A stretch of DNA of 64,000 nucleotides from Lysobacter sp. ISL-50 (GTDB taxonomy: Bacteria; Pseudomonadota; Gammaproteobacteria; Xanthomonadales; Xanthomonadaceae). Location: assembly GCF_018612875.1 (NCBI RefSeq), contig NZ_JAGGRI010000009.1:1-64000 (forward strand). Reading direction: 5' to 3'. Both the position numbers and the translations under genes were made by a program. Position 1 is the stretch's first letter. Every line of letters begins with the position of its first letter. Of this stretch, positions 10,532 to 33,428 are shown piece by piece. The notes under the pieces are model-generated. The model was not told the origin of the DNA and ran no database searches. It worked only from the letters and a program-made list of their open reading frames with translations.

Positions 10532-10544
10532 TGGAGCCTCGCGG

Positions 10545-11971: not shown

Positions 11972-11986
11972 GGCGGCGTATGCCCA

Positions 11987-12598
11987 TCACTGCGCCCACG
12001 TGGGTCGGCCGGCGGTAGGCGCCTGCGCTGCCGCCTGATTCGCAGCGTGCGCCATGTGCGCCGGCATCGCGGCGGCCTGTGCTGGTAGCGATTGGATCGC
12101 GCCCATCACCTCCTTGTACTGCGGATGGTCGGGCATGATCGGCATCTTGATCACGGCCTTGTCCTCGCCATAGCTGTCCTTTTCCCAATCGATCTTGCCG
12201 ACGAACTCGGTACCGTCCAGATCGCCGAAACTCTCGATGCACCGGCCCTGTTGTGCGGCCGCGCTCATGTCGTCCGGATGCAGTGCGTTCGCGGAATTGA
12301 GGACGCCCTTGATGAAGCTTCGCCCCATCTGGCCCCAGGTCGGTCCCTTCGGGCTATGCAGGCCGATCAGCGTCCACAGCTTGCGGCGCGCGTACTTGCC
12401 CTCCAGCACGACGAACTCGGCGTTGAGGTAGACCGCGCCGGTATCGCCGCGGGTGGCCCAGCCGTGCAGCCAGCCGTTGGCAGCGTCGCTGTACCCGCCG
12501 GGTTTGAGGGTCATGCGCACCTTGACCAAGGTGCCCTTCGGGATGAGGGAGAACGCCGGGCTTTCGGCGTCGTTGAAGTTGTTCCAGGCGGAGGACAT
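11987..12598 (-). CDS. probable phage single-strand-binding-type protein
   Basis: 203 aa. Begins MSSAWNNFNDAES and continues with beta-rich OB-like sequence (GTLVKVRMTLKPGG, AVYLNAEFVVLEGKYARRKLW), then an acidic DWEKDSYGEDKAV segment and an Ala/Gln/Pro-rich flexible C-terminus ending PTWAQ. This layout and its position next to an AAA ATPase and RecB-like nuclease fit DUF669-type recombination accessory proteins. The assignment rests on layout and neighbours, not a diagnostic motif. Confidence 0.6.
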   Translation of the reverse strand: MSSAWNNFNDAESPAFSLIPKGTLVKVRMTLKPGGYSDAANGWLHGWATRGDTGAVYLNAEFVVLEGKYARRKLWTLIGLHSPKGPTWGQMGRSFIKGVLNSANALHPDDMSAAAQQGRCIESFGDLDGTEFVGKIDWEKDSYGEDKAVIKMPIMPDHPQYKEVMGAIQSLPAQAAAMPAHMAHAANQAAAQAPTAGRPTWAQ

Positions 12599-12613
12599 GG
12601 TTGACCTTACTTA

Positions 12614-13441
12614 TCAATGGATCGCGGGGGGAGTGGGCGCAGCCGCCTCCGGCGCGCCGAGCTTTCGCATGAGCTGGCCCAGGTCCGGGGGTTCGACCAT
12701 GTCGAGCCGGCCGGATCGGTCCTTGGCGGGGTAACCCCAAGGGTTGGCGGTGTGGCAAACGAAGGCGCGATAGGCGGCCCCTTCCGCCGCAGGGACCTCG
12801 GCCAGCGTGATCACCTCGTCCACGATGCCCGGCAGTTCCAGACCGGTCTTGGCACCGTCGATCTGCAGGGCATGGACACGCCGATTAAAGTCATCGACCC
12901 GCTCTTCGAGGATGCCGACGAACCAGACGTGCTTGCCGCGAACGTGCTGGAGGTGGGTCAGCCAGCCGACCATCTCCTGGCCCAGCAAGCCGTAGGCGCC
13001 GCGCGTATCGGGCTTGCCCGTCTTTTCGGAAAAGGCCTGCGGCTGGCCCTTGCACCACTGCAGGCACAGGCGACCGGCGACGGTGATCGAGTCCACGAAC
13101 AGGGTCTGGTATTTCGCGAACACGGCCGGATCGCCGTAACGCAGCCGCGCGGCCTCGAAGTGCCACTGACTGAAGGGTTGGCCTTCGCGCAGGGCGGGAT
13201 TGGGTCCGCCGAGCAGGACCGCGATATCGCGGCAGTCATCCCAGGTGCGGGGACGGATGCTGTCGCCCGGCCACGTGGCCACAGGCAGGTCGCCGGCCTC
13301 GATGTCCACGAACAAGGTCGTGGCCGGATCCAACGTCCAAAGCTGCGAAGTCTTGCCCAACCCCCAACTGCCGACGAGGACGCCCTTGACGCCCCGGGTT
13401 TCGGCCAGCCGTTGCTCGGCGGTAATGATCGGAAGCGCCAT
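12614..13441 (-). CDS. AAA/RecA-like ATPase of phage recombination module (AAA_24)
   Basis: 275 aa. Walker A is VGSWGLGKTSQL near residue 22, Walker B is TLFVDSITV around residue 112, and an HVWFVGILEERVDD strand follows. This is the AAA_24 pattern of phage NTP-binding proteins that act with SSB-like and nuclease partners in homologous recombination. Its ATG overlaps the stop of a 23-codon ORF (TGATG at 13439-13443). Confidence 0.85.
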   Translation of the reverse strand: MALPIITAEQRLAETRGVKGVLVGSWGLGKTSQLWTLDPATTLFVDIEAGDLPVATWPGDSIRPRTWDDCRDIAVLLGGPNPALREGQPFSQWHFEAARLRYGDPAVFAKYQTLFVDSITVAGRLCLQWCKGQPQAFSEKTGKPDTRGAYGLLGQEMVGWLTHLQHVRGKHVWFVGILEERVDDFNRRVHALQIDGAKTGLELPGIVDEVITLAEVPAAEGAAYRAFVCHTANPWGYPAKDRSGRLDMVEPPDLGQLMRKLGAPEAAAPTPPAIH

Positions 13442-13512
13442 CAGACGGCGCCCCCGTCATGGACTGCGGTCATCAGAATCCGGCGCCCCCAACTTACAGC
13501 TGCAATTACCAT
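13441..13512 (-). CDS. 23-codon bridging ORF
   Basis: Starts in TGATG with the stop of the 156-aa gene (13512) and ends in TGATG with the ATPase start (13441), so ribosomes could pass through three genes without leaving. The peptide is MVIAAVSWGRRIL followed by ten residues. There is no other evidence that the peptide itself matters. Confidence 0.4.
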   Translation of the reverse strand: MVIAAVSWGRRILMTAVHDGGAV

Positions 13513-13982
13513 CACGCTTGTCCTTCGGTCAGCGACAGACGGAATACCGGTTTGCCCGGCTTGAGGGTTCGGGCAGGCTCGAAGGACGCGCGCATCGATA
13601 CCGGCCACGCGGTGTACTTGGTCTCGCTGACGCGATAACTGATCTCCACGAACTCGGCCGGGTTTTCGCCCGCGGCACGGATACGCTCCACGATCCTTCC
13701 GAGCACGGCCTGATCCCACTCCACCTTCTTCGGCACCTCGCAGGAAATCCGTACCGCGCCCTCGGTCAGCGTGACCGTGCCGGTGTCCTTGCCGACGGCG
13801 AACCGCTGCTCGGCGGCGCGCTTGCCGTAACGGATGTCGAGCGCCTGGTCGATTTTGTCGGCTTGGGCGCGTGCTACGGCGACGGCCTCGGAAGCCTGGA
13901 CCTTCAAGTCGAGCAGCAAGTCCGGAGCGAACCCAGCCAGTTCGCTCGCCGGACGATCGATACAGCGTGCGAGCAGGTTCAT
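13512..13982 (-). CDS. hypothetical replication-module protein (156 aa)
   Basis: Helical N-terminal half (ELAGFAPDLLLDLKVQASEA) and a beta-rich C-terminal half with charged strands (TLTEGAVRISCEVPKKVEW). Typical of small proteins that precede AAA_24 ATPases in Xanthomonadaceae prophage-like elements; no function known. Overlaps the HTH gene upstream by 4 bases. Confidence 0.65.
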   Translation of the reverse strand: MNLLARCIDRPASELAGFAPDLLLDLKVQASEAVAVARAQADKIDQALDIRYGKRAAEQRFAVGKDTGTVTLTEGAVRISCEVPKKVEWDQAVLGRIVERIRAAGENPAEFVEISYRVSETKYTAWPVSMRASFEPARTLKPGKPVFRLSLTEGQA

Positions 13983-14245
13983 GCCGGTACTCCTTGTGCT
14001 GCCGCGCTCGCGCGCTGCGCCGTCAGGCGCAGGTCATTGCTGGGGATGCGTGCAGTGTCAGCGGTGGAGGTGCGCATGGACTCGGACTCGTATTGCTCGA
14101 TGTCCTCCAGGCGGTACTTCACGCGCCGCCCCATGACCTTGAAGAACGGCGGACCGATCGCGTCGGCGCGCCAGCGCGCCAGGGTTTCAGGGGTGACGTC
14201 CCAGCGCACGGCAAGCTGTTCGGTCGTCAGAGAGTTGTCGCTCAT
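13979..14245 (-). CDS. AlpA/excisionase-like HTH protein
   Basis: 88 aa. Residues 5-50 form a MerR-like winged helix: LTTEQLAVRWDVTPETLARW, then IGPPFFKVMGRRVKYRLEDIEQY, the classic pattern of excisionase/AlpA regulators. The C-terminal 35 residues are disordered. As first gene of the minus train, facing the repeat-rich control region, it may set transcription of the train or assist excision. Confidence 0.82.
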   Translation of the reverse strand: MSDNSLTTEQLAVRWDVTPETLARWRADAIGPPFFKVMGRRVKYRLEDIEQYESESMRTSTADTARIPSNDLRLTAQRASAAAQGVPA

Positions 14246-14302
14246 GGGAAAAGTCCTCTTCGTCGGCGTGGTGCGGCCGGGGCGAGAGACTGCGCGAAGC
14301 AG

Positions 14303-14638
14303 AGCTAGGAATGAAAGAGGGGAACGAGCTAGGAATCGTCCGCCGATTTCTAGACGTTCCTAGCTGAAACCGTATGTCGAGCTAAAAACAAGGATTTTTT
14401 TAGCTAGGAATCGACAAGCCGCGCGACGAGATTTTTTTTTGCTCCCGTACGCGCCACCGCCGAGTCGAGACGCAGGCACCTGATCACCAGAGTGCAGATT
14501 TCTGCACATTGCACATGCGCCACCACGTCAGTGCGATGCTGAAAGGAGTCGCGTACATCGCGAGGACGCGAGCGTCAGCGACGTATCTCGTAGTGCGGTT
14601 CCTAGCTCAACCATAGGAATCGGGACCGATTCCTAGCT
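14303..14638. repeat. cluster of AGCTAGGAAT repeats (iteron or operator array)
   Basis: Six near-perfect copies: direct at 14303, 14327 and 14402; inverted at 14356 and 14598 (GTTCCTAGCT) and 14629 (ATTCCTAGCT). Shorter partial copies occur near 14345 and 14613. Interspersed poly-T tracts (14394-14401, 14432-14440) lower local stability. The array lies between divergent operons, the expected place for a repressor operator set or a replication origin. Confidence 0.8.
14492..14507. promoter_or_regulatory. 16-bp perfect palindrome in the control region
   Basis: GTGCAGATTTCTGCAC is a perfect inverted repeat, the shape of a dimeric repressor site, distinct in sequence from the surrounding AGCTAGGAAT copies. 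Confidence 0.55.
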
Positions 14639-15066
14639 CTCGCGCTGCTGAATCCAAACGAACCGTGAACTCGCGCTCGTGACTTGTGGGGGATGGCGTT
14701 CAGTGATGTTGCGCATGGCTTCGGCGCCGCGCTATCTTCGTTAAGAAGAAAGAAAGCCCACTCGAAATGGGCCGCACAATGAAGGACATCACCGATGCGC
14801 AATGGACTGTTCCACCACATCGTCGTGGCGGCTTCGCGCAACCACGACAAAACTCTCCCCCGATGCTACCGCGCGCCGAACATCGGTTGCGTACGAGACC
14901 GAATCGGCGCGGGCGCAAGCCTACGCCTATCGATCCTCACTTCGCATCAGATAGCGCGCCAGTCGATCGACTGATCGGCTAGTTCGCTTCGCCTCTGCTC
15001 CATCCCGATTCAGACCGCTAGGGCCTGACGGGCAGCTTTTGCCCCGGCAAAACCGAAGGAAACAAC
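14639..15066. other. rest of the divergent control region, no supported gene
   Basis: About 430 bases. Contains a small hairpin GCCCA...TGGGC (14756-14772). ORFs at 14602-14850 and 14767-14982 overlap each other on opposite strands, lack conserved features and are not accepted. Confidence 0.4.
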
Positions 15067-15981
15067 GTGCTCAATAGAGTCATCCACTGGTTCGAGCTCG
15101 AACCGGTCGGCGCCCTGCTGTCCTACGACCACGACGCCATGTGGCCGTTCGTGCAGGCAGGCGCACTGACCGATCCGAAGCGCACGCGGTATGCAGAGTG
15201 CCGCGTGTGCAAGGCGAGGGAATCCATACAGGTCTATACGTGGGGCGAGCATCTGGTGCGCTGCAAGCGATGCGCGGGTGAAGTCGAATTCGGGCTTGAG
15301 TTCACCTCGGTGAGCCCACGGCCCGCGTGGCTGGCCGATTCGCTGGCGCGCCAGATCGACGGATCGACGGAACCGGCGAATGAACTGATCGCGGGCCGCC
15401 TGTGGCGCTTGACTCGACGATTGAGCTCAAGCCCGAGCGTCTACCTGCTTCGCTCGTCACTCAGCTTGGATCCGTCTCCGATCATCGATGCCTTGAATGA
15501 CGACTGCGAGAACGGTCGGCGCTTGGTCATCTCGACATCACTGTTCCGATCGATGCCGGTGGCTGCGCCAACCCTCACTTTCTTACCCCTGGATGAAGTC
15601 GCACATATGGAAATGGAAGGTATTCGCTTAGACACCCGAAACCTGCTGCCGCATCTGACGGATCAAATACCGCTGTGGTTCGAACTGTCGCCTCCACACA
15701 ACCGACTGACGATCGGAAGCGAAACGCTCTCGCTTCGCCGGCGCCAACCGGAGTTCATGCGCCTGCTGAAGCTGGCCCACGCTTCAGGCGCAAAGACGGC
15801 GAGTTGGCGCGCGCTGCTCCAACGTGCCGGTTACAACGCCACCTATACCAGTCTGGCGCAGGTGTTCCCATCGTCTGTGTTCCGCTTCATCGATACGTCC
15901 AAAGACGACGTGTGGATCCGCAAGTCGGTCCTTCCCCTATCGCGCGCCGGTCCAGATCGGCAAAAGCAGAGCAATCGATGA
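15067..15981 (+). CDS. hypothetical zinc-ribbon / winged-helix protein (304 aa)
   Basis: Starts at GTG 15067 after AAGGAAACAAC. Residues 45-70 hold CRVCKAR and CKRCAGEVEF, a four-Cys zinc ribbon. The middle is alpha/beta without known motifs. The C-terminus (LRRRQPEFMRLLKLAHASGA) looks like the start of a winged helix that ends near the stop. First gene of the plus-strand operon leading to the recombinases, so it may be an activator or a recombination accessory factor; not a recognised family. Confidence 0.65.
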   Translation: MLNRVIHWFELEPVGALLSYDHDAMWPFVQAGALTDPKRTRYAECRVCKARESIQVYTWGEHLVRCKRCAGEVEFGLEFTSVSPRPAWLADSLARQIDGSTEPANELIAGRLWRLTRRLSSSPSVYLLRSSLSLDPSPIIDALNDDCENGRRLVISTSLFRSMPVAAPTLTFLPLDEVAHMEMEGIRLDTRNLLPHLTDQIPLWFELSPPHNRLTIGSETLSLRRRQPEFMRLLKLAHASGAKTASWRALLQRAGYNATYTSLAQVFPSSVFRFIDTSKDDVWIRKSVLPLSRAGPDRQKQSNR

Positions 15982-16184
15982 GCATCGATACCCGCAATGA
16001 ACGCAGCGCCGCGATGGCGCGTCTGCAAACGGTCGCCGAGATTCTCGCCACAGGACTGATTCGAATGCGGCGCGCGGCGACAGCTGCGGCGAAGGGCCCT
16101 GTGGACCTTGATAACGCGTCCGAAGAGAGGGTGTATGTCACCGACCTCAAACCACCACGGAGAGACCGTCGTGACATCCACTAA
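15978..16184 (+). CDS. small helical protein (68 aa)
   Basis: ATG at 15978 overlaps the upstream stop as ATGA. A longer in-frame reading from 15675 is a shadow. The product starts MSIDTRNERSAAMARLQTVA, is helical and basic, and sits directly upstream of DUF2924. Short helical proteins in this place are standard in recombinase cassettes of xanthomonad and Burkholderia islands; function unknown. Confidence 0.6.
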   Translation: MSIDTRNERSAAMARLQTVAEILATGLIRMRRAATAAAKGPVDLDNASEERVYVTDLKPPRRDRRDIH

Positions 16185-16644
16185 TCCTACATCGCCGCAC
16201 ATCATCGCCCAGATCGAGTCGCTATACGACATGAAATGGATAGATCTCAAGAGCTTGTGGACTGAGCGATTCGGTAGCCCGCCCGGCGTCAACAATCGGC
16301 GGTATGTCGAGCGACGCTTGGCCCATCGAATACAGGAGGATGCGGCGCGCGAAGCCCAGTCCGTCGTTGTGGTCACCAACGAGGCGCGCGTTCGACACCT
16401 GCTCGCCACGGGAACGTTGAAGCCGCAGACCAAGAAGGGACTGCAGCCGGGCCAGGTGATCACCAAGAACTACCACGGCGTACTGCACACCGTTCGTGTC
16501 CTCGGCAAAGACCGCTTCGAACACAACGGAAAGCTGTACCTCAGTCTTTCGGCCATCGCCCGCGAAATCACCGGAACTCGCTGGTCCGGTCCGCTTTTCT
16601 TCGGCGTCAAGCCGACCAACGCTTCTAAGGATTCCTCCCGATGA
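16171..16644 (+). CDS. DUF2924 protein
   Basis: 157 aa from GTG 16171 with GGAGAG upstream (ATG 16135 is possible). Opening HIIAQIESLYDMKWIDLKSLW and the central RFGSPPGVNNRRYVERRLAHRI are the DUF2924 signature; a TxGTRWSGPLFFG motif closes the domain. DUF2924 genes nearly always precede a serine recombinase in integrative elements, as here (4-base overlap with the next gene), and may be a recombination directionality or accessory factor. Confidence 0.85.
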   Translation: MTSTNPTSPHIIAQIESLYDMKWIDLKSLWTERFGSPPGVNNRRYVERRLAHRIQEDAAREAQSVVVVTNEARVRHLLATGTLKPQTKKGLQPGQVITKNYHGVLHTVRVLGKDRFEHNGKLYLSLSAIAREITGTRWSGPLFFGVKPTNASKDSSR

Positions 16645-17048
16645 CCCCGCCCCTGACCATCGCCACCTACATTCGGACCTCCACTCACAGCAGCGAGGGC
16701 GTGGCCCAGCAGATCCGGCTCACCAATCGCTTTCTCCGAACCCAGTTGGGAGTCACGTCCAGCACGATCTACTGCGACGATGGCTATTCCGGTGTGTCGC
16801 TGGAACGCCCCTCCTTGCAGTCGCTGCTGGCCGACGTCAAAGCCGGGCGCGTGGACACCATCGTGGTCTCGGCGCACGACCGACTGACCCGTGTGCACAC
16901 CCATCTGCTGAGCCTGCAGATGCATTTCGAGCAGGCGCGCGTGGCGCTGCTCGCGGCGACGCCTCTGCCGCGCGGCTATCTGGGCAACGTACGTCTTGCC
17001 GCATCCATCGCCAACCTTTTTGACGACGAACTCCCCCAGAGGAACTAG
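16641..17048 (+). CDS. serine recombinase catalytic-domain-only protein
   Basis: 135 aa, resolvase N-terminal domain only. YIRTST gives nucleophile Ser14 and Arg12; the later DDGYSGVSLERPSLQ and HDRLTR carry the other active-site residues. There is no DNA-binding domain after residue 120, so it is either a partner of the large recombinase or a relic. It is complete as an ORF with no frameshift in the next gene. Confidence 0.8.
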   Translation: MTPPLTIATYIRTSTHSSEGVAQQIRLTNRFLRTQLGVTSSTIYCDDGYSGVSLERPSLQSLLADVKAGRVDTIVVSAHDRLTRVHTHLLSLQMHFEQARVALLAATPLPRGYLGNVRLAASIANLFDDELPQRN

Positions 17049-17050
17049 CC

Positions 17051-17413
17051 ATGTCCACGCAGAGCAACCTTCGCGTCGCGGTGTACTGCCAGACCCTCGG
17101 GATGTCGCCTGACCTGATCACCGTCCAGCGCGTCACGATCTCCGAAGCACTACGGGACTGTTGCGACCTTCCGCCCGTCATCCGGGTGTACGCGGATGAT
17201 GGCCGCTGCCCGAACACGCAGGTCCGAGAGCAGTTTCAGACCATGCTACTCGATGTCGATGCCGGACTAATCGACTGCATCGCAGTCATGGGACGCGAGC
17301 GCCTGGCGGACCGCGACGAGGACTATCGGACACTCAAACGCTTCCTCGATAACCGCGGTGTCGCCGTCCTGCTCTGCGAGCAGGCACCCGCGCAGTTTGT
17401 GAGGGTGCCATGA
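17051..17413 (+). CDS. degenerate resolvase-domain protein lacking the catalytic serine
   Basis: 120 aa. The fold is that of a resolvase domain (RVAVYCQTLG strand; VYADDGRC in place of DDGGFSG; a LLDVDAGLIDCIAVMGRERL segment matching LLADIKHGKVDIIVAYKLDRL of the downstream enzyme). The nucleophile position of YTRVST is changed to YCQTLG, so it cannot attack DNA. It starts 2 bases after the upstream stop and overlaps the next gene by 4. Probably a regulatory or structural subunit. Confidence 0.7.
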   Translation: MSTQSNLRVAVYCQTLGMSPDLITVQRVTISEALRDCCDLPPVIRVYADDGRCPNTQVREQFQTMLLDVDAGLIDCIAVMGRERLADRDEDYRTLKRFLDNRGVAVLLCEQAPAQFVRVP

Positions 17414-18738
17414 CCCAGGCGAAACGGCAGCGCTGCGCGGTCTACACCCGTGTTTCAACCGACGAGGGATTATCCCAGGCCTACACGTCCATTGATGCCC
17501 AGCGCGACGCTGGCGAATCCTACATCGAAAGCCGGCGCAGCGAAGGCTGGGTTCAGGTCGGCGACTACTATGATGACGGCGGATTCTCCGGCGGCACCCT
17601 TGAACGACCGGCCATGCAGCGGTTGCTGGCCGACATCAAGCACGGCAAGGTCGATATCATCGTCGCTTACAAGCTGGACCGGCTCAGTCGCTCGCTGTTC
17701 GACTTCGCCGAGCTGGTCAAGCTGTTCGACACCCACAGCGTCACCTTCGTCTCGGTCACCCAGCACTTCAACACGACCGATGCGATGGGGCGAATGCTGC
17801 TCAATATCCTCCTGACGTTCGCCCAGTTCGAACGCGAATTGACCTCCGAGCGCATTCGGGACAAGTTCATTGCCAGCAAGCGCAAGGGGTTCTGGATGCA
17901 CGGCATCCCGCCCCTGGGCTACGACGTGGAAGACCGCCGCCTGGTGATCAACGAGGAAGAAGCCAAGCGGGTGCGCTGGGCGTTCCGCCGCTTCATCGAA
18001 ACCCGCTCGATACAGAAGGTGGCGGAGGATGCGAGGAAGCTTGGGCACAACAACAAGGTTTGGGTCAGCAAACAGGGGCGAAAAACTGGCGGGATGGTGC
18101 TCGGTAAGAGCGCGATACACAAGATTCTGCATACCCGGACCTATCTCGGTCTGTTGCAACACCGAGATATCGACTTCGAGAACACCCACCCACCGATCAT
18201 CGATGTCGACGTTTGGCGCGAAGCCCACCTGATTCTCTCGGACAACTCGGTCGGACGAGGCAACATGACTCGGGCCTCCGTGCCGTTCTTGCTGAAGGGG
18301 CTGGTCTTCGCCCCGAACGGCCGGGCCTTGATTCCTTGGCACACGACCAAGAGCAATGGTCGGCTGTACCGCTATTACCAGACCAGAGAGACGATGGAAC
18401 GCGGCCGACTGTCGGAATCGCCGCTGCCACGCCTGCCGGCTGCAGAACTGGAGGACATCGTGCTGCAACAACTGCGCTCGATCTTCAAGCGGCAGGATTT
18501 GTTGCAGGAAGTGGTCGCGGCCGCCATTGCCAAAGACCCCAGCTTAGACGAGGCGCGAGTCACCGTCGCGACCCGTCAGATTGACAGAATCTGGGACTCA
18601 CTATTCCCCGAGGAGCAATCGCAGTTGGTGCGGCAACTCATCGAGCGCGTCGTCGTGAAGCCCGACGCCATTGAGATTCGGCTACTTGCGCTAGGCGACG
18701 TGCCGGTCGTCCAGGAGCTATCCAAGGAGGACGCATGA
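17410..18738 (+). CDS. large serine recombinase (integrase)
   Basis: 442 aa. Catalytic domain 1-150 with YTRVST (Ser16), DDGGFSGGTLERPAMQRLL and KLDRLSRS; then the recombinase domain (PPLGYDVEDRRLVINEEEAK) and a beta-rich C-terminus. The usual CxxC zinc ribbon after LLKGL is replaced by FAPNGRAL, as in a subfamily of element recombinases. Likely the enzyme that moves this element in and out of its site. Confidence 0.92.
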   Translation: MTQAKRQRCAVYTRVSTDEGLSQAYTSIDAQRDAGESYIESRRSEGWVQVGDYYDDGGFSGGTLERPAMQRLLADIKHGKVDIIVAYKLDRLSRSLFDFAELVKLFDTHSVTFVSVTQHFNTTDAMGRMLLNILLTFAQFERELTSERIRDKFIASKRKGFWMHGIPPLGYDVEDRRLVINEEEAKRVRWAFRRFIETRSIQKVAEDARKLGHNNKVWVSKQGRKTGGMVLGKSAIHKILHTRTYLGLLQHRDIDFENTHPPIIDVDVWREAHLILSDNSVGRGNMTRASVPFLLKGLVFAPNGRALIPWHTTKSNGRLYRYYQTRETMERGRLSESPLPRLPAAELEDIVLQQLRSIFKRQDLLQEVVAAAIAKDPSLDEARVTVATRQIDRIWDSLFPEEQSQLVRQLIERVVVKPDAIEIRLLALGDVPVVQELSKEDA

Positions 18739-19187
18739 GTCCGCCGGTGATTCGTGTGGACGGAGATACCAGCGTCGTGCAAATCAGCAACGGCGATAGC
18801 GTGGTGCGGATTCCGATCCAGCTTCGACGCCGCTCGGGCAAGCGGCGGCTCCGACCCGCCAAGGTGCAATGTGCAGCGCTTTCATCGGAGCTCACCGCGC
18901 TGCAAGCAGCTCTGGCGCGCGGGTATCGATGGCGCGACATGCTCGACCATGGGGAAGTCGCCTCGACCAAGGACATCGCCGACAGCGGGAACATAGACCG
19001 GAGCTACGTGTCGCGAATGATCAACATGACGATGCTAACGCCCGAGATCATCGAGTCGATTTTGGACGACACCCTCCCCGACTTCACCCTGGCCGACATC
19101 GCTATCGCTCCGCCGGACCTGTGGGATGAACAACTGCGCAAGTTCCGATTGCGCAGAACATCGAACGGTTTGGTTCAAGACCCCTAA
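18735..19187 (+). CDS. ParB-type HTH accessory protein
   Basis: 150 aa, 4-base overlap with the recombinase. Basic segment PIQLRRRSGKRRLRPAKVQ then a helix-turn-helix STKDIADSGNIDRSYVSRMI, similar to the HTH of KorB/ParB-like proteins found downstream of element recombinases. Likely a directionality factor or regulator; role inferred. Confidence 0.7.
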   Translation: MSPPVIRVDGDTSVVQISNGDSVVRIPIQLRRRSGKRRLRPAKVQCAALSSELTALQAALARGYRWRDMLDHGEVASTKDIADSGNIDRSYVSRMINMTMLTPEIIESILDDTLPDFTLADIAIAPPDLWDEQLRKFRLRRTSNGLVQDP

Positions 19188-19226
19188 TCGCTTACTCTCG
19201 AACAGCCACGATAAGAAGGATAAGAC

Positions 19227-19853
19227 ATGCCAAACATCGCAACTATATTCAAGGCCGAGGTAGCGCGCCTGACGCGCAAAGAACTCAAGCTTCAGGTCGA
19301 GCCCCTGCGCAAGCAATTGACCGAACAACGCAAGATCATTGCCGCGCTACGCGCCGACGTTGCAAAGCTCCAGAAAGGCGCCTCAAAGAGCCAAAAAGCG
19401 GTCTCAGTTCAACACATTGACGATGCGCCGGCGACGCGCGCACGGTTCTCGGCCAGCGGCTTGTTGAAGTTGCGCACTCGTCTGGGCCTATCGCGCGAAG
19501 CATTTGCACCGTTGCTTGGTGCAAGCCCTCAGGCACTCGTCAACTGGGAGACCGGCGTCAATCGCCCCCGTGCCGAGTTTATAGAGAAGTTGACAATTGT
19601 ACGTGGCTTGAGCAAGCGAAAGGTTCAGGAGTTGCTTGAACAGCACGCGCCAAAGAACAACCCGAAGACCAATCGTAAAGCCACCGCTTCTAAGAGGCTG
19701 ACAAAGAAGGTTTCGACGAAGCGAACTTCGCCTAAGAATTACGCGAAGAAAGCCCAAAAAAAGGCAGCGAATCCTGCCACCCCAGCTAGGCGCGGCCGCC
19801 CCGCGAAAGGGAGCGTTCAAACGCCGGCGACAGCGCAAGCCCAAACCACGTAA
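19227..19853 (+). CDS. XRE regulator with histone-H1-like tail
   Basis: 208 aa. Residues 1-55 are a charged coiled coil; 72-125 an XRE helix-turn-helix (LRTRLGLSREAFAPLLGASP, WETGVNRPRAE); 135-208 a Lys/Ala/Pro/Thr-rich tail like bacterial H1/AlgP proteins. It should bind DNA both sequence-specifically and non-specifically, suiting a role as element repressor or nucleoid protein. A ribosome site AAGGA precedes ATG 19227 and the gene ends at a strong terminator. Confidence 0.8.
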   Translation: MPNIATIFKAEVARLTRKELKLQVEPLRKQLTEQRKIIAALRADVAKLQKGASKSQKAVSVQHIDDAPATRARFSASGLLKLRTRLGLSREAFAPLLGASPQALVNWETGVNRPRAEFIEKLTIVRGLSKRKVQELLEQHAPKNNPKTNRKATASKRLTKKVSTKRTSPKNYAKKAQKKAANPATPARRGRPAKGSVQTPATAQAQTT

Positions 19854-20003: not shown

Positions 20004-20063
20004 TAAAGCAACTTGGGCGATTCAGTCCGAAACTGCGGTTGCGAGTCCGCCGAGTTCGTGAAG

Positions 20064-21044
20064 CTAGGCCCTCACCAAACCTAGCTCTCGCAATATTTTC
20101 CTGTAAGCCACCGATGCCAGATCTGCACCGAAGGACTGTTCGGTGTCGCTCGTCAGATCGATATACCTCGGCCGTTGCCCTTCCACGACAGTCAGGTCAT
20201 CGGTTTGCACCTTTTGCGAGAAGGCATTGACCTCCGCATCCGAGCCGAGCCTCAACGAGTTATCGAATCGGATCGGGTAAAACCAGACGCACTGGTCCTC
20301 GCCTACGGGAGAGGCGCAGTTGAAGATGGTAAACAGCCCATCCGGGAAGTAGATGTCCAGAACGGCGATAAACGGCGTGTGGATTCGATAGGCGCGGCGC
20401 CAGATGAAATCCTCCGGCGACGAATGGCCGATTGGATAGTTCCCCAGCGAGCTGCTGTATTCAAAACTGAACCCCCCGTCTAACGGCTCGACCCTGTACG
20501 TCGGCATGACCTCGGCGGTGCAATCGTTGAATGTCGCCCGATGCACGAATGGCAGGTGTGAGATATCCATGAAGCCTTCGACTTGGCGCCCGGCGGATGC
20601 GTTGACGTTTACCGGCGGCGCCACCACCAGCCGCTGGATTTCGCTCTCGCGCCCTGGCCCCAGATCATAGAAAGCTCCTGCTCCGAGACTGGTCCACAGC
20701 AGCCCGTGAGATTCGACGGTCGGATAGGAGCACAGATCGAACCGCTTCAGGTTCTGCACCTGAGGGTGAGCCGGAATTCTGGAACAGGCCCCCAGATGGG
20801 CGAATTGCAGACCGTGATAAGGGCACTGCAACCCGGCTTCACTCACGGCTCCTGCGGAAAGCATTTCGCCCCGATGCGGGCAGCGGTCGTCCGCCACCAC
20901 CACTTCGCCCTGAATTTTGTAGATCACCAGTGGCTTGCCGAGCAGCACGGCAGCCAGGGGCTTGCCTTCAGTCGTGGCGGCCTCGAGGTCCTGCAGTCTC
21001 GCAACCGGGTAGTAATGATCGGCGAGTTTCTCTGAGTAGCTCAT
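20064..21044 (-). CDS. Rieske non-heme iron oxygenase B
   Basis: 326 aa, the size of VanA/NdmA-type single-component oxygenases. [2Fe-2S] ligands: C55-x-H57 in CPHRG and C74-x2-H77 in CPYHG. Mononuclear iron: D160-x2-H163-x4-H168 in FMDISHLPFVH. This class inserts oxygen into, or demethylates, small aromatic or heterocyclic compounds using electrons from a separate reductase, which is not encoded nearby. Last gene of the minus-strand operon after the MFS gene. Related to, but distinct from, the copy at 23611. Confidence 0.9.
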   Translation of the reverse strand: MSYSEKLADHYYPVARLQDLEAATTEGKPLAAVLLGKPLVIYKIQGEVVVADDRCPHRGEMLSAGAVSEAGLQCPYHGLQFAHLGACSRIPAHPQVQNLKRFDLCSYPTVESHGLLWTSLGAGAFYDLGPGRESEIQRLVVAPPVNVNASAGRQVEGFMDISHLPFVHRATFNDCTAEVMPTYRVEPLDGGFSFEYSSSLGNYPIGHSSPEDFIWRRAYRIHTPFIAVLDIYFPDGLFTIFNCASPVGEDQCVWFYPIRFDNSLRLGSDAEVNAFSQKVQTDDLTVVEGQRPRYIDLTSDTEQSFGADLASVAYRKILRELGLVRA

Positions 21045-21137
21045 AAGTCCTCCGATTGCAGATCGTCGATGGCATTGCCGCGCTCTTGGTCACGCCACCG
21101 TGCTGCCGCCGCCGACGCTTCGAAACTTTGGGAAGGG

Positions 21138-22505
21138 TTAATTTGGTTCGCGCACCGCGCGATATCCGGGCAGATAAGTCCCCCACCACGCCTGTAGTAA
21201 CGACAAAACCACCATCAGCGCCATCGCACGCACTTCGCCGTAGCCCCCGCTTCCGCCGAGCCATCCGATGGTCGCGACCACCGCCACCGCGCCCAGCGCG
21301 CCGCTGACGCGCTGCACGATGTGGACCAACGTGGCCGCGCCGCCGATGTCCTTTCGATCCACCGCGGCATAAGCAGCCGTGGTGGCCGGGTTCGTCGTCC
21401 AGGCCGACCCGATGCCGCGGACGAACATGAGCGCCGCGGCGATGTCGGACGGCACGGCGATCAAGGCAAAGGGCGCCGTAGACACTGCCAGCATGGCGGC
21501 TCCAGCCAGGACGACGGGCCGGGGGCCGAAGCGGTCCACCAAGTTACCGGCGAGATACAGTGCGCAGGCCGTTCCTGATCCCATGAATACCAGCATCACG
21601 CCGATCTGCGAGTGGCTCATCTCGTGTCGTGCGTGGAAGTACAGCGGAAACAACAGCAGCCCCCCGAACACGTTAGCGCTGTTTGCCATGCCCAGCAGCG
21701 ACGACGCGCAGAACTGGCGATTCCCCATCAGCTCAAGCGCCAGGAGCGAAGACCTGCTCGTACGTGCAACCGCGACGAACAGAGCCAGGAGCACGGCGCT
21801 GCCGCCGATGGCCAGCCAACCGTTCCCCGAAGTCTGGCGGGAGGTGATCTCCGCCGCGCCGTACAGGGCCAATGGCAGCCCGGTCACGATGAGGACCAGC
21901 TGCCCTAGAGGAAGCCTGAGCCCATGCTGGGCGATGCCCCCGGGCATCACCTTCGCGGCCCACATCGCAGCGATCGCCCCCAGCGGCACGTTGATCCAGA
22001 ACAGCCACCGCCATGAGGCGACGTCGACCAACCAGCCGCCGATGCCCGGCCCGATCGCCGCGGCCAAGCTGATCAGGGTGCCGACGACTCCGAGGACGCG
22101 GCCCACCTGATCGCGCTCGACGCCTCCTATCAGGATGGCGTGCCCGGTCGGAAGCAGGATGCCGGCAGCCAGCCCTTGGACGATACGAGCGGCAATCAGC
22201 GTGTCGAGACTGGTCGCGAACGCGCAGCCGATCGACGCCCCAATGAAAGTCGCCAACGCGGCGCCCCAGACGCGCCCGTGCCCGAACCGGCCGCCGAACC
22301 ACGTCGAGGTCGGCAGCGAAACGGCGATGGCAATGAGATAGCTGGAAATAATCCACTGCGCGTCTTCAAGCGGCGCATTGAGGTCGGCTTGCACGGAGAT
22401 CAGGGCGAGACCGGCGAGGGTCGCGTCCAGCATCACCAGCATCCCGCCCATGCCGGAGACCAAACCGATGGACCACACGCGTCGCGGTATGCGGGTGGGA
22501 CTCAT
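21138..22505 (-). CDS. MFS transporter, DHA2 (EmrB/QacA) type
   Basis: 455 aa from ATG 22505, which overlaps the PuuD-like stop as ATGA; a GTG start at 22613 would add a hydrophilic leader read in another frame. Thirteen to fourteen hydrophobic segments. Motif A is WFGGRFGHGRVWG and motif C is the GTLISLAAAIGPGIGGWLVD segment, typical of proton-driven drug or metabolite exporters. Likely exports the substrate or product of the operon. Confidence 0.9.
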   Translation of the reverse strand: MSPTRIPRRVWSIGLVSGMGGMLVMLDATLAGLALISVQADLNAPLEDAQWIISSYLIAIAVSLPTSTWFGGRFGHGRVWGAALATFIGASIGCAFATSLDTLIAARIVQGLAAGILLPTGHAILIGGVERDQVGRVLGVVGTLISLAAAIGPGIGGWLVDVASWRWLFWINVPLGAIAAMWAAKVMPGGIAQHGLRLPLGQLVLIVTGLPLALYGAAEITSRQTSGNGWLAIGGSAVLLALFVAVARTSRSSLLALELMGNRQFCASSLLGMANSANVFGGLLLFPLYFHARHEMSHSQIGVMLVFMGSGTACALYLAGNLVDRFGPRPVVLAGAAMLAVSTAPFALIAVPSDIAAALMFVRGIGSAWTTNPATTAAYAAVDRKDIGGAATLVHIVQRVSGALGAVAVVATIGWLGGSGGYGEVRAMALMVVLSLLQAWWGTYLPGYRAVREPN

Positions 22506-23503
22506 GGCTCGGGTGTGCGCGAGATAATCCTTGCGGACGGCGAGCCGGCGGCCGCAGTGGTTGCCTCTGCCGTGGCTGGAAGATTGGCTTGGTGTTCGAT
22601 GACCACCAACCACGCCAATGCCAGCACCAGAGCGAACGCGGCAGCGACGCCGGCCCAGCGCAATCGCGTTGGCACAATGCCGTGGTTGCGGTGGACCATT
22701 TCGATTACATGGCGCGAGGCCACGCTGACGGCCAGCACGATGACGATAGTGGCGAATGTATGGCCATTGGCCTTGATGGCGCTCCCCATGTGACTGGAAA
22801 GCATCAGGAAGACGACCGCAGGCAGGAGAAACGAGTGCTGGTTGCGTCGATCCCAGTATTGCTTCCTCATCGGGTCGGGCTGCTCGCCGCGCATCACCGC
22901 AGCCATCGCCGCACGCGTCGCCGGATAGAGATTGCCGAGTATGTTGATCGATACGGTCGTTCCGAGCATCGCGCCGATCTGGATCATCGCACCGTGCTGC
23001 GAGTACCGGTCCGCGTAGAACGACGTCCAGGCCAGAACATGCAAGGCGCAGGCAAAGTAGTAGAGGGTCGTGCGATGCAGCGGGATACGGTTGATCGCTT
23101 CATTAATCAGCGGAGCGCCTATCAGCCCGGCCAGCGACAGGGCGATTGCCGCGCGGGACGACAGCGACGCGTCGGCGGGGTCGAGCAGGTAGACCTGGGG
23201 CTGCCGGTAATAGATCAGACTGAAAAGTAGCAGGCCGGTACCGAACAGCCAACGAATCAGATTGAACGACAAGACTAGCCCTTCCAGATCGGTGGCCTTC
23301 GGTCGAGTGACCCTTTCGGTTTGCCAGAACCCGAGGCTATGGGTGTCCCAGACCTCAAGATCGGCCGACGAGTCGAGCACTGAGCGGGCTCTGATCGCCA
23401 GTCTGCGCAGCCACAGCACGAAGCCCATCCAAGCGATCGCGGCGATCACATGCAGCCAACGCACGATGTCGGTCATGAAATCGATCAAGGCATCCATCAT
23501 CAT
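22502..23503 (-). CDS. PuuD-like membrane protein without cytochrome c domain
   Basis: 333 aa, about eight membrane helices, beginning MMMDALIDFMTDIVRWLHVI. The signature WDRRNQHSFLLPAVVFLMLS matches the urate hydroxylase PuuD membrane domain, with HGAMIQIGAMLG before it. It ends after a short Ala/Thr-rich tail with no CxxCH, whereas the homologue at 24560-25828 has one. It may form a complex with, or be a substrate-diverged copy of, that protein. Confidence 0.8.
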   Translation of the reverse strand: MMMDALIDFMTDIVRWLHVIAAIAWMGFVLWLRRLAIRARSVLDSSADLEVWDTHSLGFWQTERVTRPKATDLEGLVLSFNLIRWLFGTGLLLFSLIYYRQPQVYLLDPADASLSSRAAIALSLAGLIGAPLINEAINRIPLHRTTLYYFACALHVLAWTSFYADRYSQHGAMIQIGAMLGTTVSINILGNLYPATRAAMAAVMRGEQPDPMRKQYWDRRNQHSFLLPAVVFLMLSSHMGSAIKANGHTFATIVIVLAVSVASRHVIEMVHRNHGIVPTRLRWAGVAAAFALVLALAWLVVIEHQANLPATAEATTAAAGSPSARIISRTPEP

Positions 23504-23610
23504 GATCTACTCCGGATGATCTGCCAGCGTTCCATCCAGTGCGCCGTTGCCGTCCCACTTGGTTCGGCGTCGAGAGTTCGGTGGGGCTTCGCTGCGATTA
23601 GGAAGGCTGC

Positions 23611-24570
23611 TCATGCGGTGGCCAGCCCCATTTCTCGCAACAGGCGCCGGTAGTGAACGGATGCGAGATCCGCCGCGAAGGACGCTTCGCCGGACTTCAG
23701 CGGAAGATGGCGTGGCTGCTGGTTCTCCACCATCAGACGGTCTTCCGCGAAGATGCGCGCGTTGAAATCCTTGACCGCCTCGTCCGTGCCGAGCTCGAGG
23801 TCGAAACACACCGGAGAGAACAACACGGTGCGGTCGCTCGTCACCGGGCTGGCGCCGTTCAATATGTTCAGGCGCCCGTCGGGGAAGTGCACCGTCAGGT
23901 GAGCCAGATAGGGAAGGCGGACGTCGAAGCTACGACGCCAGACGAAGTCGTTCGCAGTCATTCCGCTGCCGACCGCGTAATTCGAGACCGTGCTGCAATA
24001 ATCGAAACGCAACCGACCTTCGTCGACCTGGACCGAATATGCAGGCACGGCCGCATTGGTGGGATCGGCAAAGGTCGTGGAATGCACGTGCGCGAAATGC
24101 GCCACGTCGATGAAGCCCTCCACTTGCCGGCCCGCACTGGCGGCGATCGGCACCGGGTCCGGCGCCACCTGGCGAAATGCGGGGTCGTCCCAATCGGGGC
24201 TCAGCTCCGGAAACGGCGGAGGCGAGGCCCCAAGACAGGTCCAGACCAGCCCGCAACGCTCCACCGCGGGATAAGTTGAGAGCTGGAACTGCCGGGATGG
24301 CGTCAGGTGTGGATGCGCCGGTATGTGAGTGCAGCGCCCCTCCTGCCCAAAGGCAAGGCCGTGGTAGGGGCAGATCAACATGCCCTCCCGATGCTGCCCC
24401 AGGCTGAGGCGGGTGCCACGGTGCGGGCAACGATCGGCGGCCACCACTATCTGCTGGCGAGCCCGGTACAGCACGAGATCGTTCTCCAACAGCGACGCAC
24501 AGACAGCGCGATCGTGCACGTCCTCGCTACGCGCTATCGGATACCAATACGGCAGCAGCTCAGTGTGCAT
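23611..24570 (-). CDS. Rieske non-heme iron oxygenase A
   Basis: 319 aa. [2Fe-2S] ligands C48-x-H50 (CPHRG) and C67-x2-H70 (CPYHG); mononuclear iron D155-x2-H158-x4-H163 (FIDVAHFAHVH). Its ATG lies inside the last codons of the PuuD-cytochrome c gene, 11-base overlap, so the two are translated together. Substrate unknown; the neighbours suggest a purine or another N-heterocycle. Confidence 0.9.
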   Translation of the reverse strand: MHTELLPYWYPIARSEDVHDRAVCASLLENDLVLYRARQQIVVAADRCPHRGTRLSLGQHREGMLICPYHGLAFGQEGRCTHIPAHPHLTPSRQFQLSTYPAVERCGLVWTCLGASPPPFPELSPDWDDPAFRQVAPDPVPIAASAGRQVEGFIDVAHFAHVHSTTFADPTNAAVPAYSVQVDEGRLRFDYCSTVSNYAVGSGMTANDFVWRRSFDVRLPYLAHLTVHFPDGRLNILNGASPVTSDRTVLFSPVCFDLELGTDEAVKDFNARIFAEDRLMVENQQPRHLPLKSGEASFAADLASVHYRRLLREMGLATA

Positions 24571-25828
24571 GGTCAGTCGCCCATTGAGTCACTGCTTTGC
24601 GTTCATCCGGCTGCATGTCCGTGGCGTTGCCAGGCGGCATGCGCTCGCTCTGCACGACAGTGGCGATCAGGCCCGCATATAAAGGCAGGGTTTCGGAAGT
24701 GAAGACGATCCCACGCGGAGGCGAGGCCATGCCAGGGAAGCTGGGTTGCACGGCATGGCAAACCGCGCAGCGACGTTGAACGATCTCGTCGGCGCGCAAT
24801 AAAACACTGCCGCTGGCTACTGAGTTCGCGATCGAAGTCGGACTTGAGTGCTTGGCCGGCTGCGCTGATGCATCTGCCGCAGCAGATGCATCAGCGTGAG
24901 CGGCGACCTGTTCGGTTGGAAGCTCCGGCAAGGCCATCCAGGTCATTCCCAGCCCGAGTACCAAGATAGCAGCCATGGACACCCAGCGCTGTTGGGTCGG
25001 CATGACCCCACCATTTCGGTGGGTGGCATTGAAAACCCATCGAGCCCCCACGCTCAAAGCCACTACGGAGGCAATGGTCAGGAACGGGTAGCCGTTAGCG
25101 CGGACCAGACTTCCCATGTGGCTGGAAAGCATCAGGAAGACCACGGCGAAAGTGATGTGGGCGTGTAAACCCCTTCGATCCCAGAGCAGCCGATCGATGG
25201 GGTCTGGCTGCTCGCCTTTCAGCACCGCGTCGTAGGCTTTGCGCATCCTCGGATAGAGCCACCAGATGACGTTGGACGCGATCACTACGCCCAGCATCGC
25301 GCCGATTTGGATCATGGCGCCGTGCTGGGAGAACAGATTCGCGTACAGCCACACCCAGCCGAGGAGGTGAGTGATGGTCGCGGCCATGTACAAGGTTTTG
25401 TGCTGCAGTGGTATGCGGTTGACGAGCTCGTTGAGGAGGGGCGCGCATATCAGGCCGAGGGCCGAAATTTCGATCGCATCGCGGGCAGACAGCCTCGCGA
25501 TACTTGGGTCGACCAAATACGCCAGAGGTTGGCGGTAGTAGATCAGGCCGAAAAGCACGACGCCGGTACCGATCAGCCAGCGAATCTGATTGAACGACCA
25601 AACTAGCCCGTCCAGCTCCGCTGCGGTAGGTGCTGAGACTTTCGAGCTCCGCCAGAACGACAGGCTGTGCGTGTCCCAGACCTCCAGTTCGGCCCGCTGA
25701 TCAAGGAGCGGTTTCGCCCGCAGCGTCAGGCGTCTTACCCACATGCCGCCGCCCAGCCATGCGAACGCAGCGAGGACATGCAGCCACCGGGTCATATCGG
25801 ATGCCAAGTCCAGCAATGTCCCTATCAT
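24560..25828 (-). CDS. PuuD-like urate hydroxylase with C-terminal cytochrome c
   Basis: 422 aa from ATG 25828 (AGGAG at good spacing). N-terminal eight-helix domain with WDRRGLHAHITFAVVFLMLS and HGAMIQIGAMLG as in PuuD, an Ala/Ser-rich linker, then a class I cytochrome c: CAVCH at 354-358 and axial Met near 397 (RMPPGN). PuuD enzymes hydroxylate urate at the membrane and pass electrons to cytochrome c. First gene of the operon. Whether urate itself is the substrate here is open. Confidence 0.85.
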   Translation of the reverse strand: MIGTLLDLASDMTRWLHVLAAFAWLGGGMWVRRLTLRAKPLLDQRAELEVWDTHSLSFWRSSKVSAPTAAELDGLVWSFNQIRWLIGTGVVLFGLIYYRQPLAYLVDPSIARLSARDAIEISALGLICAPLLNELVNRIPLQHKTLYMAATITHLLGWVWLYANLFSQHGAMIQIGAMLGVVIASNVIWWLYPRMRKAYDAVLKGEQPDPIDRLLWDRRGLHAHITFAVVFLMLSSHMGSLVRANGYPFLTIASVVALSVGARWVFNATHRNGGVMPTQQRWVSMAAILVLGLGMTWMALPELPTEQVAAHADASAAADASAQPAKHSSPTSIANSVASGSVLLRADEIVQRRCAVCHAVQPSFPGMASPPRGIVFTSETLPLYAGLIATVVQSERMPPGNATDMQPDERKAVTQWATDHAH

Positions 25829-26339
25829 TGCTAAGTCTCCTGATGCATTACGCGATCGCCACAAACTCGCTGCGCGTGTCCCAATCCTTGTGAGGGCGGC
25901 ACATCGTTTAAACCGCCGGCTTGTTACCAACCATGTGGCTGGCAAACGGACCCACTGAGCCGTGGCGCCATAGAGCCCCCTTCGGGACGCCTGATCAAGC
26001 GGCATTAACGTGGCCTGCGTGTACTCGTGAATTTGGTACACGGCCTTCACGCCGGGCCGCAGTGCGATAGTTTCTTCTCCTCGAAAAAAATGTGCGTGTT
26101 CGAGCCGCTCGCAGCAGCTGCGCCGATGATGTCCATTCTCCCTTCGTTCGTTCCCTTGCCAGTCCGCGCTACGGATGCGGCCTGTAAGGCAACGCTATCA
26201 GATACGCCGTGGCCCACTTCTGTGCGCAAATCCTCACAACGTCGGATGCTCACTCTTACTCACTCGCGCACGGCCTCGTGGAGCTGATCCGTTATTCCAT
26301 AGACCGAGTAACGTTCACCAAGCTTGGCTTGGCCGGCAA
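25829..26339. other. intergenic region upstream of the Rieske/PuuD operon
   Basis: About 510 bases without a supported gene; overlapping ORFs on both strands (26027-26287, 26047-26253) look like noise. It should contain the operon promoter, but no clear box is recognised. Confidence 0.4.
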
Positions 26340-26942
26340 CTACACCATTAACGACGATGGCGTAATGACGTCAGGACGCACCAGGTTGACCGCTTCGATC
26401 AGCCCACATTGGCGGGTAACAGCGTGGTCCGCCGCCGCCCAGAAGATCGGCAGCCAGCCGCGCGAGAACACACGAGCCAACTGTGATCGCACCACTCCGT
26501 GTTCGGCATGCTCGGCACGCAATTGCCTCAATGCTTTGCAACTCAGGAAGAAGATGCCGTCGTCGCGGAACGTGCCCCTCTCATGAGGACAACGCTCGAG
26601 GACGATGTCCTCGGCCATGAGATTTCGCCAATCGATCACGTATTGGCAAAAATCTGGATACTCCAATAACGCGGAAAAGCGACAGTCGCTCGTATACCAG
26701 CAGTCCCGCAACAGGCTCGAAACCTTGTCCAGGTTGTAGGCGTGAGCTTCGCTGAGACTCATTCCATTGGGGCGATCGCGGCCGCCATGAGACAGCAGTG
26801 TTTTCAACCTGGCTGAGGCATCCGGATCCAACCCGAGTTGCAAGGCCAAGCGCTCGATGCACGCACTGCGCCCTACGCTGTCGAAGTACAAGGCGTGTAC
26901 TTCGGCTGGCGAAAATGGGTGATAGCTGACATGAATACCCAT
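26340..26942 (-). CDS. hypothetical protein (200 aa)
   Basis: ATG at 26942 has AGGA upstream; the longer reading to 27257 is a shadow of the YegP-like gene. Opens MGIHVSYHPFSPAEVHALYF, mostly helical, with cysteines and a C-terminal RGWLPIFWAAADHAVTRQCG segment. The beginning is reminiscent of DUF1877-type proteins, but the similarity is weak. No signal peptide. Function unknown; it shares the strand of the YegP-like gene 58 bases upstream. Confidence 0.6.
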   Translation of the reverse strand: MGIHVSYHPFSPAEVHALYFDSVGRSACIERLALQLGLDPDASARLKTLLSHGGRDRPNGMSLSEAHAYNLDKVSSLLRDCWYTSDCRFSALLEYPDFCQYVIDWRNLMAEDIVLERCPHERGTFRDDGIFFLSCKALRQLRAEHAEHGVVRSQLARVFSRGWLPIFWAAADHAVTRQCGLIEAVNLVRPDVITPSSLMV

Positions 26943-27000
26943 AAAGCGTCCTGTCCTTAGACTGTCCGGCCACGCGGATCGAACACAGGCTGGTTGCTCT

Positions 27001-27243
27001 TTAGCCGTCGACTTCCCGTATCTCAGCGCCACCCAGGTTTGCAATGATGTCGATGGTCCGCAGCATCGAGCCCTTGTCGGGATAGGACTCCCCGTGGGCC
27101 ATTGGCTCTCCGTTTCCGCCGACCAGTCGCCAGCGCCACTGCCCATCGGTCGCAGATCCGGCCAAGAAAGCGTTAGACAATGAGCGCTGCCCGCCCACCC
27201 TCCTGCCTTCCCGATACACCTCGAAGCGCGGTTTGCCAGCCAT
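27001..27243 (-). CDS. DUF1508/YegP-like protein
   Basis: 80 aa. FEVYREG at the start and the GQWRWRLVGGNGEPMAHGES core are the YegP fold: short beta-alpha repeat with the FxxWRWRL motif. Such proteins are small, soluble and of unknown function, often duplicated in one chain; here only one repeat is present. Followed by the 200-aa gene on the same strand. Confidence 0.75.
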   Translation of the reverse strand: MAGKPRFEVYREGRRVGGQRSLSNAFLAGSATDGQWRWRLVGGNGEPMAHGESYPDKGSMLRTIDIIANLGGAEIREVDG

Positions 27244-27422
27244 GATGGTTCCCCCACGTTTTACCAGGAGAACGGCGCTCGGCGCGTCCTACGGCCAACG
27301 GCCAACGGCCACCAAGCCTAGCTGCGGCACAAGACTATGCGCATCCAGGTTCTTACGTGACCGAGGGCATAGAAACCTTGCTGTCCGAGACCATGCGTGG
27401 CCCGCGGATGATGTTGCGTACA

Positions 27423-28453: not shown

Positions 28454-28839
28454 ATGAAATTTGACGTCAAAAACTGAGCCTGCCGGAACTGAATTCCCTT
28501 CTGATCGCGTCGCCCCCGTCGCCTTAGTACGTCGGCAAGTGATCGCACTCGCCGCTAAATACGACTATACGATCAACGAATTTATGGCGGTCAGACGCTA
28601 CCTGAGGCGGCCGGCAAAAAGCGTGCGTCACGCCGAAAGATGGGCAAGGTTGCTGCCAAGTACCGCGACCCAGAGAACCTACGCAACACATTGTCAGGAC
28701 GGGGGCGGATGCCGCGATGGCTGGCCAAGAAGACGAGTACCACCGGAGCGCCACCGACTTCCTGATACCCGGCTTGGCAAGACCGATCGCGCGCAAGAAC
28801 CGCTCAATAGGCAAGAAAACAGTCGTTAAGCAGCGCTGA
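28454..28839 (+). pseudogene. decayed H-NS-like gene, copy 1
   Basis: Reading across frames gives MKFDVK(K)LSLPELNSLL near the start, QVIALAAKYDYTINEF in the middle, and KVAAKYRDPEN, SGRGRMPRWLAKK and SATDFLIPGLARP at the end, the layout of an H-NS family nucleoid protein. At least three frameshifts are needed (an A lost near 28470, one before the basic linker, one near 28730). It lies antisense to the cassette gene. Confidence 0.8.
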
Positions 28840-33352: not shown

Positions 33353-33428
33353 TGGTGGGCCCACCAGGATTCGAACCTGGAACCAAAGGATTATGAGTCC
33401 TCTGCTCTAACCGTTGAGCTATAGGCCC
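33353..33428 (-). tRNA. ileX: tRNA-Ile2 (CAU anticodon, lysidine type)
   Basis: Complete 76-base cloverleaf with encoded CCA. Acceptor GGGCCTA pairs with TGGGCCC; D-arm AGCTCAACGGTTAGAGC; anticodon loop CTCATAA; T-arm CCAGG-TTCGAAT-CCTGG. The body (TTGGT variable region, G1-C72) resembles tRNA-Ile2 more than elongator tRNA-Met, so C34 is probably modified by TilS to read AUA. Confidence 0.85.

Follow-up and report, generated by a model that had tools for sequence, protein, structure and literature searches.

What is accomplished by an operon that combines two Rieske oxygenases with two PuuD-like membrane proteins and an exporter? This question is raised by a five-gene block of Lysobacter sp. 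ISL-50, which is located within positions 1 to 64,000 of contig NZ_JAGGRI010000009.1 (the whole stretch of 64,000 nucleotides that was analysed, hereafter the window). Quite possibly, the block comprises a duplicated module of one Rieske oxygenase and one PuuD-like protein that, together with the exporter, would oxidise a purine-type compound and export the product. As an initial annotation of the sequence had described, all five genes lie on one strand, and both this arrangement and the gene order are borne out by the open reading frames (ORFs) and their Pfam domains. Starting at 25828 and ending at 20064 on the minus strand, the genes are all intact:

24560..25828, minus strand: P2c, PuuD-like membrane protein with a C-terminal CxxCH at residue 354 (Urate_ox_N, 9.2e-42; alignment and trees)
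23611..24570, minus strand: R2, HpxD-related Rieske oxygenase (Pfam Rieske and VanA_C; motifs, tree and identity to annotated HpxD)
22502..23503, minus strand: P1, PuuD-like membrane protein without a cytochrome c domain (Urate_ox_N, 1.4e-40; alignment)
21138..22505, minus strand: DHA2/EmrB-like MFS exporter (MFS_1, 5.5e-48; start placed at 22505)
20064..21044, minus strand: R1, HpxD-related Rieske oxygenase (Pfam Rieske and VanA_C; motifs and tree)

The same annotation had mentioned several overlapping stops and starts. Overlaps do exist, but at only two of the four junctions (11 bp at P2c/R2 and 4 bp at P1/MFS), the remaining two being gaps of 107 and 93 bp. The exporter matches TIGR00711 at 1.9e-58, but its score of 198 bits is under the model cut-off of 230.

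Recurrence of the block within Lysobacter

By tblastn, the block is present in the same order, including its small upstream genes, in four copies: in the window, on contig C9 of the same genome (stretches L005/L006), in Lysobacter antibioticus 13-6 (L007/L029; taken to be genome G157), and in genome G283 (L027). The end of the R1 gene in the C9 copy was read separately from the tblastn order. Within the genus, three of the 20 genomes are carriers. Homology among the copies extends over ~7.3 kb, from the upstream gene X1 to R1 (window 20046-27304), while a single 0.3-kb piece ~5 kb away is all that aligns between the flanks of the C9 copy and those of the G157 and G283 copies in the fetched stretches. 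Since the flanks barely align, the unit occupies three settings, namely the window, C9, and a site common to G157 and G283. All five genes are open in every copy, and the 30 pairwise ratios of nonsynonymous to synonymous substitution rates (dN/dS) range from 0.06 (the lowest, in R1 and R2) to 0.40 (the highest, in P1). The five genes are under purifying selection, and their recurrence together with these ratios is more than chance.

We rejected a recent duplication as the origin of the two copies in ISL-50, as the amino acid identity between them (72-86%) is overall no higher than that between the window copy and the other genomes (73-89%). The gene trees conflict over which copy is the outlier: the R1 tree places the window copy outside the other three (98/69), the P1 tree places the C9 copy outside (100/99), and the R2 and P2c trees leave this open. 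Exchange between copies may be the cause of this conflict.

In the family sample, P2c has matches in 15 of 297 genomes at E 1e-20, with the best beyond the three carriers at 1.3e-43 and 33% identity. The initial annotation had regarded absence of the paired genes elsewhere as evidence against its reading. The pairing does recur, in all four copies, but in what was searched the adjacent Rieske/PuuD-like arrangement is confined to Lysobacter. No paper in the literature searched joins the terms "Rieske" and "PuuD", and a term search of one L. antibioticus genome paper (PMC13163355) found no mention of Rieske, PuuD, urate or purine.

Rieske proteins and the HpxD lineage

Both oxygenases carry the expected motifs, with CxH, CxxH and DxxHxxxxH at residues 55, 74 and 160 of R1 and at residues 48, 67 and 155 of R2. 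R2 is up to 48.6% identical to the products of plasmid genes annotated as hpxD and shares 151 of 317 residues (48%, 279 bits) with Klebsiella HpxD, while the best identity of R1 to an HpxD-type protein is at least 42.0% among the matches listed. We therefore compared both with a set of 27 proteins composed of four R1, four R2, nine HpxD-type (five plasmid loci chosen from 118 records plus four genome loci), and ten weaker Rieske proteins; the latter two groups take in all 14 genomes other than ISL-50 with an R2 match at E 1e-35. Mean identity to the nine HpxD-type proteins is 47.1% for R2 and 38.8% for R1, and R1 and R2 are 43.2% identical to each other. In the tree, R1 and R2 form sister groups of one clade (support 99/96) and join the nine HpxD-type proteins in a 17-row clade (99/98), which a branch separates from the ten weaker proteins. 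R1 and R2 may be either nested within HpxD or sister to it in this tree, for which a long-branch warning was flagged. The nine HpxD-type proteins have 101 invariant positions, 80 of which are kept by R2 and 69 by R1 in all four copies.

According to PMC7373994, Klebsiella hpxDE is involved in oxidising hypoxanthine to xanthine and the latter to uric acid. Purine hydroxylation by R1 and R2 is a sound lead from these comparisons, and the purine substrate suggested by the initial annotation is both supported and sharpened by the clustering of its Rieske proteins with HpxD, a molybdenum-free xanthine hydroxylase. Its other suggestion, demethylation of the NdmA/VanA type, is not supported. The solved structures nearest to R2 are SxtDIOX (150 bits), SxtT (149), NdmA (129), and NdmB (114), with E values from 6e-43 to 6e-32, and Klebsiella HpxD scores 138, 143, 137, and 120 bits against the same four. 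R2 thus resembles NdmA and NdmB about as much as HpxD itself does and falls well short of its 279 bits to HpxD, in a comparison that covers R2 against NdmA, NdmB and HpxD and mixes phmmer and BLASTP scores, which are not strictly alike.

Two neighborhoods of related Rieske genes were also seen. With a PuuD-family gene ~11 kb away and an ORF that by eye resembles adenosine deaminase next to it, a weaker Rieske relative in genome G518 (L132:7629-8762) hints that the weaker group may act on purines as well. On an Acinetobacter plasmid (L032:1-12963), an HpxD-like Rieske gene accompanies hpxO, allantoicase, ureidoglycolate lyase, and NCS2 genes in a plasmid-borne purine-use region.

PuuD-like proteins and the urate route

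As described in PMC4562309, PuuD consists of an 8-helix membrane domain and a periplasmic cytochrome c, its deletion in Agrobacterium abolished urate breakdown, and purine degradation is the role of full-length DUF989 proteins, which have the cytochrome c. P1 spans the full length of the Pfam model, yet the C-terminal cytochrome c, with its CxxCH and a later Met, is present in P2c and absent from P1. For comparison, we used PuuD-family proteins of all 39 non-Lysobacter genomes matched in the family and class samples; further phylum-sample genomes matching the P alignment and 220 plasmid records stand outside the tree. The P alignment matches 106 of the 398 genomes in the phylum sample, where the best score beyond Lysobacter is 185 bits versus 602-771 bits for the four proteins of ISL-50. 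The ten Lysobacter P proteins form a single clade, whose branch to the 39 others measures 3.76 changes per column. Together with the sister relationship of R1 and R2, this single clade is what duplication of the R+P pair as one unit would produce.

The P proteins have also lost most of the PuuD signature. Each keeps 25-30 (38-46%) of the 65 membrane-domain positions that are near-invariant in the 39 proteins, 23 of these positions being retained throughout the ten and 30 in no member, whereas each of the 39 keeps at least 86% in a leave-one-out control. All ten retain His17, His54, His222, His237, Arg14, and Arg219, and Arg263 also stays; some of these histidines may be heme ligands. Gly55, Gly56, Tyr30, His76, Trp80, Tyr83, and Thr85 are lost from all ten, while Gly57 is kept in six. 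On the published topology, most of the lost residues map to the cytosolic loop I-II and helix II or their vicinity, and several of the replacements are constant across the Lysobacter set. A signature rewritten in this manner points to another substrate or role. Among solved structures, the P family found a single meaningless match (E 0.39).

Both L. antibioticus 13-6 (L029:1478-2788) and G283 (L026:6200-7405) encode a third PuuD-like protein, which ends in a cytochrome c. The first Cys of its heme motif is replaced by Tyr in the former and kept in the latter, and in L. antibioticus the overlapping next ORF matches a BD-FAE-type alpha/beta hydrolase.

The genomic context of the P proteins differs from that of their relatives too. 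At the 39 other PuuD-family loci, uraH or uraD is found within the fetched stretch in 32 cases, or 33 counting the NCS2 permease; seven loci have no uraH/uraD match and six of these no NCS2 match, with several stretches ending at contig ends. Beside the four Lysobacter copies, uraH, uraD, hpxO, and the NCS2 permease all lack a match at E 1e-3, while HIU hydrolase and OHCU decarboxylase were each found in none of five Lysobacter genomes (three carriers and two non-carriers; controls were positive in 4 of 14 for each). In the fetched stretches, none of the 39 loci has a Rieske gene nearby at E 1e-6. Likewise, the 14 non-ISL-50 genomes with an R2 match yielded no P2c match in the fetched 17-18 kb around the Rieske gene, and the PuuD gene closest to such a Rieske gene is 10.6 kb away by coordinates, in G518.

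From the missing signature residues and the unmatched downstream enzymes, it is doubtful that P1 and P2c oxidise urate, as the initial annotation had implied for PuuD-like proteins. The same evidence bears upon plain purine salvage or catabolism, in which the R proteins would make urate from hypoxanthine or xanthine and the P proteins would convert it to 5-hydroxyisourate, which would yield allantoin unaided for export or use. The HpxD lineage of the one and the PuuD family of the other both favor such a route, and 5-hydroxyisourate is metastable and yields racemic allantoin in vitro according to PMC4562309. With the P proteins so far below the left-out controls and with neither uraH nor uraD family matches in the carriers nor hpxO or NCS2 beside the copies, however, we consider catabolism unlikely. 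The block is built from purine-oxidation parts and is detached from the standard pathway for urate.

Electron supply, surroundings and proposed function

The initial annotation had also left the electron source open for want of a nearby reductase gene, which holds as far as we searched: at E 1e-3, tblastn with a pair of HpxE-type queries and an FAD-reductase-like one found no match anywhere in the window or in the stretches of 35-40 kb that hold the other three copies. This is not peculiar to Lysobacter, as HpxE is adjacent in five of the nine HpxD-type loci and without a match in the other four fetched stretches, one of which has an ORF resembling an FAD reductase by eye. Because only five of nine have it, an adjacent HpxE is a weak criterion for the HpxD type. 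A distant HpxE homologue (33%) is located on contig C32 of ISL-50, and the simplest explanation is that a reductase encoded at another locus supplies the electrons.

Alternatively, the PuuD-like proteins could be redox partners that feed the Rieske oxygenases in place of the missing reductase, which would fit the constant pairing and joint duplication of R and P, the lack of a reductase match near any copy, and the survival of candidate heme residues in proteins that have shed much of the PuuD signature. The passage of urate's electrons to a Rieske centre via cytochrome c or ubiquinol would be uphill, however, and a closed electron loop from urate to the Rieske centre was rejected on redox potentials. 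Given also that four of the nine HpxD-type loci lack an HpxE match in the fetched stretch, that ISL-50 has a distant homologue elsewhere, and that PuuD electrons are proposed to flow outward to the periplasmic cytochrome c (PMC4562309), we regard such a partnership as highly improbable.

Four further features adjoin the block:

16641..18738, plus strand: genes for a resolvase and a large serine recombinase, to the left of the cluster (Resolvase and Recombinase domains)
26340..26942, minus strand: X2, 200-residue protein (no Pfam match; upstream of all four copies)
27001..27243, minus strand: X1, 80-residue DUF1508 protein (PF07411, 8.3e-10)
33353..33428, minus strand: tRNA-Met (ARAGORN), a possible right edge of the element

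The X1 DNA aligns in all four copies, and its reading frame was checked by eye in three; X2 is only a candidate for a functional part of the cluster. Control of the cluster by an RNA element was rejected, since an Rfam search over window 14-34 kb gave the tRNA plus two matches below the gathering score and no riboswitch. The window copy lies between recombinase and island-type genes on its left and tRNA-Met on its right, in a window that starts at the contig end, and is likely on a mobile element. Phage- or island-type genes at 3318-19853 include a ParB-linked DNA methylase, a D5_N primase-like gene, a PDDEXK nuclease, AAA_24, resolvases, and an HTH protein. Phage carriage was rejected, there being no P2c match in phage records and no relative by P alignment in viral contigs. 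Three of the four copies have short ORFs close by that by eye are H-NS-like (window 28461-28829; L029:9270-9689; L027:3347-3766). Palindromes closely flank the window cluster at either end (19964, 27451, and 28860) and also occur upstream of the C9 copy (L005:12647); they resemble one half of an integron attC site of the xanthomonad type. An integron cassette was nonetheless rejected, as a pattern search found no complete attC.

Such surroundings would also suit a detoxification operon, carried as mobile-element cargo, whose task would be to oxidise and expel a toxic heterocycle encountered in soil or produced by the host. The DHA2/EmrB-like exporter, the adjacent serine recombinases and phage-type genes, the three genomic settings, and the patchy presence within the genus all favor this explanation. 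In contrast, two oxygenases plus two membrane oxidases seem to us elaborate for resistance, and a general phenazine/myxin link was rejected, since phzA/B occurs in two of the three carriers (G157 and G283) and is absent from the ISL-50 genome, which has two cluster copies. Detoxification is thus, in our estimation, an improbable purpose.

We return to the oxidation and export of a purine-type compound. In each module, the HpxD-lineage oxygenase would act in the cytosol to hydroxylate the ring of a purine or similar compound, and the PuuD-derived membrane protein, presumably heme-bearing, would then oxidise that product by two electrons, which it would pass to cytochrome c. P2c would use its own cytochrome c, while P1 would use that of P2c or a soluble one, and the MFS protein would export the end product. 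The purpose would be to make and secrete an oxidised purine-type compound, rather than to obtain nitrogen from urate breakdown. More tentatively, this may be a Lysobacter natural-product or signalling pathway in which HpxD-derived hydroxylases are coupled to neofunctionalised, heme-bearing PuuD-derived oxidases.

Several observations weigh against this proposal. The block has no scaffold-building gene, and its substrate and product are predictions only. With the P signature rewritten, the substrate of these proteins may not be a purine, and R1, more diverged (39%) and on a long branch, could act on another compound. No NCBIfam model named HpxD matched R1 or R2, the name being taken from plasmid annotation, and a structure prediction for P2c reached a confidence score (pLDDT) of 45.6 from five sequences and was not used. 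In the class sample, R2 at E 1e-50 matched one of 369 genomes, namely ISL-50 itself, such that the inference from context rests on few comparisons. Finally, matches to MoCoBD_2 (molybdenum hydroxylase) score 190 and 182 bits in ISL-50 and the non-carrier G138, respectively, and 60 and 68 bits in G157 and G283, lower yet above the cut-off. The ISL-50 match is possibly a xanthine dehydrogenase, and a molybdenum hydroxylase in this genome could render an HpxD-type step redundant.

If the proposal is correct, it would provide a second function for the PuuD (DUF989) fold, all of whose then known full-length members were tied to purine degradation in 2015 (PMC4562309), and an instance of purine-breakdown enzymes repurposed for secretion. 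Among known systems, Klebsiella HpxDE is similar in having a Rieske oxygenase of ~320-350 residues that falls in one clade with R1 and R2, both of which keep the Rieske and iron motifs. It differs in that the Lysobacter block has two oxygenases, PuuD-like partners, and an exporter, with no HpxE, uraH, uraD, hpxO, or NCS2 match near any copy. NdmA/NdmB and SxtT/SxtDIOX are the closest solved structures to R2, yet at 114-150 bits they are more distant than HpxD. PuuD itself shares with P1 and P2c the Urate_ox_N/DUF989 membrane domain and several invariant His and Arg residues, and with P2c the cytochrome c tail, while the Lysobacter proteins are set apart by ~30% identity, a separate long-branch clade, a largely replaced loop I-II signature, a P1 without cytochrome c, and a block without urate-breakdown context.

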